A stretch of DNA of 64,000 nucleotides from the NCBI GenBank assembly GCA_016861165.1, contig BOKV01000016.1:38641-102640 (forward strand). The letters are read 5' to 3'. Made by a program: the position numbers and the translations under genes. The notes beneath the pieces were generated by a model. The model made no database searches. It was not told the DNA's origin and saw only the letters and a list, made by a program, of their open reading frames with translations. The stretch is from Alphaproteobacteria bacterium. GTDB lineage: Bacteria; Pseudomonadota; Alphaproteobacteria; Rhizobiales; Rhizobiaceae. This document shows, piece by piece, positions 59,904 through 61,142 of the stretch. Position 1 is the first letter of the stretch. Each line of letters begins with the position of its first letter.

Positions 59904-59938
59904 TTGCAATTCAATTAGCTATCGCTAATATAATGGCC
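59904..59938 (+). promoter_or_regulatory. Promoter/operator of the arsR-family gene
   Basis: TTGCAA (59904-59909) with TAATAT or TATAAT downstream forms a plausible promoter. A perfect inverted repeat ATTAGC-TATC-GCTAAT (59914-59929) lies in the spacer, the type of site used by ArsR-family repressors. The -10 abuts the start codon. Confidence 0.6.
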
Positions 59939-60235
59939 ATGAACATCGCCGAACTCGAACAGAATGCCGCCCAGGCCGCCGATCTCCTGGGAGCGATGGC
60001 CAATCGGCGGCGCCTTGTCGTGCTGTGCCGGCTCGTCGACGGCGAGAAGAGCGTCAACGCGCTGGCCGAGAGCGTCGGCCTCAGCCAGTCGGCCCTGTCG
60101 CAGCATCTGGCCAGGCTGCGCGAGAAGGGCCTGGTGGCGACCCGGCGCGACGCGCAGACGATCTACTACCGCATCGCCAGCGAGGAAGTGCGCCGCGTCC
60201 TGTCAACGCTCTACGGCCTCTATTGCGCCCGCTAG
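59933..60235 (+). CDS. ArsR-family transcriptional regulator
   Basis: A 100-residue winged-helix regulator. The core LLGAMANRRRLVVLCRLVDGEKSVNALAESVGLSQSALSQHLARLREKGLVATRRDAQTIYYRIASEEVRRVLSTLYGLYC has the ArsR recognition helix. No metal-binding CxC is present in helix 3, though one Cys lies mid-protein and another at the end. That pattern fits the NolR/BigR-like group more than metal sensors. Starts at 59933 and 59939 are both ATG. Its operator lies in the promoter it shares with no other gene except possibly glcB. Confidence 0.88.
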   Translation: MAMNIAELEQNAAQAADLLGAMANRRRLVVLCRLVDGEKSVNALAESVGLSQSALSQHLARLREKGLVATRRDAQTIYYRIASEEVRRVLSTLYGLYCAR

Positions 60236-60274
60236 TGCGGGGCATGCGGCCGCGACAGCAGTGGTTCTTCTCCG

Positions 60275-60302
60275 TTGAACGGTTGTCGCCGGCATCCCAT
60301 AT
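60275..60302 (+). promoter_or_regulatory. RpoH-like promoter of hsp20
   Basis: GTTGAAC, 14 bases, then TCCCATAT closely matches the classic heat-shock sigma-32 consensus CTTGAAA-N14-CCCCATnT. The predicted start lies about 115 bases before the hsp20 ATG. Confidence 0.6.
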
Positions 60303-60385
60303 TGACGCCAGCGGAGTGCCGATGAGCGGGCTTCGCTTGCGAGTTGCTGAAGGGTGGCGATGGCGTTTATCGCATCGCGAAGATC

Positions 60386-60423
60386 GGCAGTGCCACCCCG
60401 TTGGACTTGGGAAAGGCATTGCC
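60386..60423 (+). promoter_or_regulatory. Hairpin covering hsp20 Shine-Dalgarno (candidate RNA thermometer)
   Basis: GGCAGTGCC (60386-60394) pairs with GGCATTGCC (60415-60423) over 9 bp with one G-U pair, ending exactly at the ATG. Inside, CCC can pair with the GGG of the Shine-Dalgarno GGGAAAGG. The ribosome-binding site would be hidden at low temperature. Confidence 0.6.
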
Positions 60424-60852
60424 ATGACGCGACTGGCCGGATTTTCGAGCCCCCTGTTGCTCGGCTTCGACGAACTGGAGCGCATGCTGGAGCGCGTGTC
60501 GAAGGCGTCCGGAGACGGCTATCCGCCCTACAATATCGAGCGCATACGGGCGACGAACGGTCAGCCCGAGATGCTGCGCATCACGCTCGCCATTGCCGGC
60601 TTCACCGAGGCCGACCTCGACATCACGCTGGAACGCAACCAGCTCACGGTGCGCGGCAAGCAGCAGGAGGACGCCGAGCGCGAATTCCTGCACCGCGGCA
60701 TCGCCGCGCGCCAGTTCCAGCGCTCCTTCGTGCTGGCTGAGGGTATCGAGATCGCCGGCGCGACGCTGGAGAACGGACTTCTGTCGATCAATCTGACCCG
60801 CAACGAGCCGGAATCGGTCGTGCGCAAGATCGTGATCTCGGCCGGGCGCTGA
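60424..60852 (+). CDS. Small heat shock protein Hsp20
   Basis: A 142-residue alpha-crystallin-domain chaperone. The N-terminal SSPLLLGFDELERMLERV and PPYNIERI precede the core LRITLAIAGFTEADLDITLERNQLTVRGK, AARQFQRSFVLAEGIEIAGATLENGLLSINL. The C-terminal IxI-like tail is weak. It holds unfolded proteins for refolding. The 5' region has a heat-shock promoter and a hairpin. It pairs with the DUF1150 gene, 32 bases downstream. Confidence 0.94.
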   Translation: MTRLAGFSSPLLLGFDELERMLERVSKASGDGYPPYNIERIRATNGQPEMLRITLAIAGFTEADLDITLERNQLTVRGKQQEDAEREFLHRGIAARQFQRSFVLAEGIEIAGATLENGLLSINLTRNEPESVVRKIVISAGR

Positions 60853-60884: not shown

Positions 60885-61142
60885 ATGCGTCACGAAACCG
60901 AATTCAAGCCCATCAGCACGGACGAGCTGGCCCAGATCGGCAATGGCCACATCGCCTATTTGCGGCAACTGGCCGGCAGCGAGATCGCGGAGGCCTTCCC
61001 CAACCTCGTCCAGATCGACCCGAACGTGAAGGTGTGGGCGCTGTTCGGCGCCGACGGCACACCGATCGCGATCGCCGACGATGCTGGCGGGGCGCTGTCG
61101 ACCGCCTTTCAGAACAACCTGCTGCCGGTCGCCGTGCACTGA
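60885..61142 (+). CDS. DUF1150 family protein
   Basis: An 85-residue protein, MRHETEFKPISTDELAQIGNGHIAYLRQLAGSEIAEAFPNLVQID, typical of DUF1150, a small soluble family nearly always found next to hsp20 in alphaproteobacteria. Function is unknown; a role in the heat response is implied by position. ATG 60885 has GGAG 7 bases upstream; the ATG at 60873 lacks one. Confidence 0.93.
   Translation: MRHETEFKPISTDELAQIGNGHIAYLRQLAGSEIAEAFPNLVQIDPNVKVWALFGADGTPIAIADDAGGALSTAFQNNLLPVAVH

Follow-up and report, generated by a model that had tools for sequence, protein, structure and literature searches.

The leader of the hsp20 gene in the window, the whole 64,000-nucleotide stretch of DNA analysed here, raises the question of whether it acts as an RNA thermometer and which of its hairpins would do so. 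A preliminary description had proposed a thermometer behind a heat-shock promoter, in which a 9-bp hairpin directly before the ATG hides the Shine-Dalgarno (SD) sequence. We found a leader of thermometer type, ROSE-like and shared with orthologs; this finding does not extend to the 9-bp hairpin. The window's genome is a Rhizobiaceae-family assembly, as judged by its relatives, and the set for its genus comprises six species. Ortholog leaders were gathered by whole-genome and contig searches, which gave 127 distinct leaders. The promoter and the genes of the locus are as follows.

60274..60302, + strand: RpoH-type promoter, GTTGAAC - N - CCATAT (TTGA-N18-CCATAT), whose motif and spacing are shared with 95 of the 127 ortholog leaders.
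60424..60852, + strand: hsp20, an IbpA-like small heat-shock protein of 142 aa (PF00011), with orthologs throughout the order.
60885..61142, + strand: DUF1150 (BQ00720 family) gene, the conserved partner downstream of hsp20.

The DUF1150 gene lies adjacent to and downstream of hsp20 in 124 of 127 ortholog loci. We set the hsp20 start at ATG 60424, where the orthologs also begin, and for that reason discarded the in-frame starts upstream. The hsp20 frame stays open from 60025 to 60852, across the leader and well beyond it, and the frame lengths vary between sister species; the open frame is probably a matter of chance in GC-rich DNA. Some 40 nt separate the promoter from the end of an upstream ArsR-family regulator gene on the same strand (59933-60235); the nearest NCBIfam model for this gene is BigR, below the cut-off.

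GTTGAAC occupies 60274-60280 and TCCCATAT occupies 60295-60302, with 14 nt between them. The letters of the promoter GTTGAAC-N14-TCCCATAT had been read correctly in the preliminary description, with GTTGAAC one base from the start assigned there. CCATAT stands upstream of 123 of the 127 distinct ortholog leaders, and TTGA-N17/18-CCATAT was found in 95, with a spacing of 18 in 85 of those 95. Because of this conservation across ortholog leaders, the promoter lies far beyond chance. The pattern TTGAA-N16/17-CCATAT has only three matches in the window's genome, against none for the reversed-pattern control. One of the two other matches (L168, G000:C13:103624-103651, minus strand) is located 47 nt before a gene for an HtpX-like membrane protease. 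The locus thus combines TTGAA and CCATAT at the conserved spacing, a heat-shock gene and an RpoH (sigma32) gene encoded in the same genome. The conservation among orthologs, the rarity of the pattern and the encoded RpoH therefore support well that a genuine RpoH promoter precedes hsp20, at the position indicated by the conserved motif. The motif predicts a transcription start about 5-12 nt downstream of the promoter.

The ortholog leaders of the Hyphomicrobiales share two hairpins, a 5' hairpin of the form GGAnGCC..GGGnCC, termed hairpin A, and then an SD hairpin of the form GUCGCU..AGGAC. Both bear the same bulged-G module, YGCY/RGR. The module is present in 112 of 127 leaders as opposed to 2.2 in dinucleotide shuffles, and hairpin A together with the SD module in 101 of 127 as opposed to 0.8. 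In leaders such as L099 and L118, the bulged-G module of the 5' hairpin (UGCC/GGG) is the same as that of the SD hairpin, so the leaders resemble two tandem copies of one module. Covariation was tested in 42 leaders from other genera than that of the window. There, 90.6% of cells are paired, two-sided changes occur at 11 of 17 pairs, and the covariation score of 0.42 exceeds those of shuffles (0.21) and of slid partners (at most 0.20). Hairpin A has two-sided changes at six of its eight pairs across the order, and RNAalifold, unaided, recovered hairpin A and most core pairs of the SD hairpin.

In the 3'-proximal hairpin of the typical orthologs, a U(U/C)GCU motif is paired with the SD, as in ROSE elements. 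One ortholog leader is matched along its whole length by the Rfam ROSE model RF00435, which recovers the same two hairpins and scores 24.4 bits, below its cut-off of 45. A scan of 20 related loci gave none at the gathering score; most leaders of this hsp20 group escape the model. In most relatives tested, the computed SD-opening energy drops by 1.5-5 kcal from 20 to 42 C. The hspH gene of M. loti, mlr3192, is probably the ortholog of the window's hsp20, a placement that fits the Mesorhizobium gene order hsp20-DUF1150-ptsN and is aided by M. loti rpoN1, which we take to be mll3196. Every class A sHSP gene of M. loti, including hspH mlr3192, is reported to have a ROSE element (PMC3989490).

How much of this plan remains in the window can be followed along the leader, all features being on the + strand.

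60310..60337, + strand: hairpin A, AGCGGAG-UGCC[GAUGAGC]GGG-CUUCGCU with a bulged G, the conserved 5' hairpin.
60341..60348, + strand: 5' arm of the ROSE-type anti-SD module, GAGUUGCU, with the UUGCU motif at 60344-60348.
60349..60402, + strand: segment of 54 nt between the two ROSE arms, variable among sister species.
60352..60398, + strand: alternative apical helix, GGGUGGC (60352-60358) with GCCACCC (60392-60398), 1.3-3.3 kcal/mol less stable than the fold of the preliminary description.
60386..60423, + strand: the previously proposed hairpin, GGCAGUGCC/GGCAUUGCC with inner CCCG/UGGG, a species-specific local fold of lowest energy that is not conserved.
60403..60408, + strand: 3' arm of the ROSE module, GGACUU, 78% of cells paired in six species.
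60409..60416, + strand: SD GGGAAAGG with the core AAAGG at 60412-60416, read from the sequence, with a spacing of 7 nt to the ATG.

Hairpin A provides the stable 5' hairpin ahead of the putative thermosensing hairpin, in the leader of a small heat-shock gene, as expected of a ROSE element. Within the genus, 96% of its cells are paired, with two-sided changes at two of nine pairs in the six species. Directly 3' of it, GTTGC is invariant in all six species and aligned to the model positions GUCGCU. The typical U(U/C)GCU motif, which had been reported as absent, is therefore present as UUGCU at 60344-60348. This motif can pair with GGACUU, but the SD at 60409-60416 lies outside the pairing. The two arms are separated by 54 nt in the window, compared with about 5-12 nt in typical relatives and 26-35 nt in genus g2, and the inserts vary in length and sequence from species to species. 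RNAalifold on the six genus leaders picked hairpin A and CGAGUU/GACUUG unaided, and the arm cells are 78% paired across the six species, a value to be read beside the 73.8% reached by one slid control (+1). The genus consensus fold also contains a GGG/CCC helix equivalent to that at 60352..60398, which competes with the 9-bp hairpin. In g2, an intact module, AAGUUGCC/GGGACUU, encloses the 26-35 nt, and in both genera the likely SD stands 3' of the ROSE module.

A covariance model (R1) built without the window's genus scored the leaders of that genus at 31.1, 27.3, 25.1, 21.9, 17.9 and 13.4 bits. The window's leader obtained 17.9 bits (60308-60363), well below most other leaders. On the window's own genome it was the second-best match, with an E of 1.54, so that membership could not be established from the window by itself and is argued from the sister species. 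The best match in that genome (G000:C21, 23.7 bits) was set aside, with no clear gene within reach. R1 places the second hairpin of the window locally and not on the distant GGACUU arm; the local UUGCU-GA-AGGG hairpin of this alignment, seen in the window, L002 and L003, was rejected for its loop of only two bases. The long-range arm pairing is missing from the minimum free energy (MFE) fold of the window. RNAalifold also proposed sequestration of the SD by codons 6-8 (GAAAG/UUUUC), which we dismissed as the Phe codon TTT occurs in six of six species of the genus and also in 40 of 67 others.

The MFE fold consists instead of the 9-bp stem, in which GGCAGTGCC (60386-60394) faces GGCATTGCC (60415-60423), and of the inner CCCG/UGGG pairing. 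The preliminary description was right about its letters, its rank as the MFE fold and its cover of the SD; the hairpin ends at the AUG, has -21.5 kcal/mol with a z of -2.5 for a 56-nt piece, and holds 92-99% of the predicted ensemble. That it would serve as a species-specific thermometer, its 9-bp GGCAGUGCC/GGCAUUGCC stem and inner CCC/GGG pairs melting on heating, is nevertheless quite improbable. Only 4-5 of the nine pairs form in the nearest species, and the stem is broken in the other sister species. Across the six species 48.7% of its cells pair, versus 29.5-41% in slid controls; a lack of pair conservation among relatives, named beforehand as grounds for giving the hairpin up, is thus largely what was found. 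A 9-bp helix is also ordinary by chance, with a P of 0.57 anywhere in a leader of such composition and of 0.05-0.13 when the outer 3' base must fall within the final 12 nt. The computed pairing probability of the hairpin is undiminished at 47 C. Most settings gave a flat energy for opening the SD, about 5.5 kcal/mol over the range of 20 to 47 C, as opposed to the drop in most relatives tested; a decrease of about 2 kcal appeared only when 60 nt of coding sequence were added. The folding model is a weak test. The 9-bp hairpin is probably not the conserved regulatory element.

In this species, the two folds could also compete, the conserved extended hairpin leaving the SD free and the 9-bp hairpin burying it, as a bistable or kinetic switch instead of a melting zipper. 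We regard such a switch as unlikely. Compared with the 9-bp fold, the GGGUGGC/GCCACCC fold lacks about 1.3-2.7 kcal/mol in stability when the leader is folded as far as the AUG, and about 2-5 kcal/mol once coding sequence is added, whether the ROSE arms take part or not. That the GC-rich leader folds by chance and the promoter is the sole regulatory feature is very improbable. Although the whole-leader folding energy is modestly under that of shuffles (RNAfold, z -1.7) and the window has no Rfam match, the covarying structure is order-wide and partly retained in the window, which disfavours this reading for the ortholog group.

Decay of the ROSE element weighs more seriously. The protein tree groups L007, the window's genus, g2 and g11 (98/97 support). 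In g11 (L009, L159, L160 and L162), CCATAT is kept in four of four genomes and TTGAA upstream in three of four, but only about 30 nt extend from CCATAT to the ATG and there are no ROSE hairpins. In this sister genus, as its leader sequences suggest, the RNA element has apparently been lost while the heat-shock -10 box stays. With split arms in the one genus and loss in the other, the clade therefore shows both remodelling and loss, and decay competes seriously with the reading of a rewired, working thermometer. The leader would then be a remnant without useful thermosensing and RpoH transcription the main control, as the SD shifted out of the ROSE module, the inserts differing per species and the loss in g11 would all suggest. 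By calculation, too, the SD of the window is at least as accessible as it is behind shuffled upstream sequence (0.56). However, hairpin A, with its compensatory changes, and the invariant GTTGC arm suggest selection in the six species, and in g2 the module is still intact, with a larger loop inside it; we consider decay somewhat unlikely.

The window's leader is best read as divergent and remodelled, perhaps in decay, within the family of ROSE-like leaders that precede hspH-type hsp20-DUF1150 genes. On the comparison of sequences, we think it probable that hsp20-DUF1150 is transcribed by RpoH with a ROSE-descended leader, its arms split by an insertion and its SD moved 3'; this leader would be a candidate thermometer. 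The RpoH promoter would drive the hsp20-DUF1150 unit, and the leader would derive from the two-hairpin ROSE-like RNA before hsp20 orthologs throughout the Hyphomicrobiales. In typical relatives, the last hairpin pairs GUCGCU, with its bulged G, with the AGGAC SD and would keep ribosomes out until the temperature rises. The window's genus retains the 5' hairpin and both arms, but the insertion has moved the arms apart so that they form the base of a longer hairpin, and a new GGAAAGG SD immediately 3' of this hairpin serves translation. In the window's species, the additional 9-bp hairpin may also bury the SD. The sequence comparison shows the promoter conservation, the homology of the leaders, the covariation, the insertion and the displaced SD; occlusion of the SD at low temperature, its release by heat and the survival of regulation through the remodelling would follow from this model. 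The "different design" previously suspected holds only in the sense of an ancestral ROSE hairpin that was split and its SD moved, and not for the 9-bp hairpin.

Like the ROSE element RF00435 (B. japonicum hspA type), the window's leader lies before hsp20 and downstream of the promoter, and has a 5' hairpin of the type GccGCC..GGggC and a UUGCU motif. Unlike it, the leader is without a middle hairpin, its UUGCU arm is 54 nt from the partner, and its SD follows the module on the 3' side. When the window was scanned with Rfam, no match reached the gathering score, and the leader is far below it. The Pseudomonas ibpA genes have short, two-hairpin ROSE-like thermometers, whose second hairpin sets U(U/C)GCU against the SD (PMC3669281). 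Their plan is that of the typical ortholog leaders, with two hairpins, a sigma32/RpoH promoter and a leader of about 60 nt (PMC3669281), whereas the predicted element of the window has an expanded second hairpin and an SD no longer directly held. The same genome also holds a different hsp20 paralog, whose leader (L032, G000:C8:105266-105734, minus strand) has an ordinary ROSE-type arm pair, GTCGCTTCAAAGGAGGACTT, unsplit and beside the start codon. The pattern search of this genome did not find TTGAA-N16/17-CCATAT at L032, nor was L032 among the matches listed for the Rfam ROSE model.

The ROSE-type thermometer class is known; what appears to be new here, judging from sequence, is a split, SD-displaced variant of modest interest. 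The locus and its relatives illustrate that bacteria of one clade can split, displace and lose a widespread RNA thermometer and still retain the heat-shock promoter box. The natural series of intact, expanded, split and lost leaders could serve as a test of what translational control adds to RpoH control.
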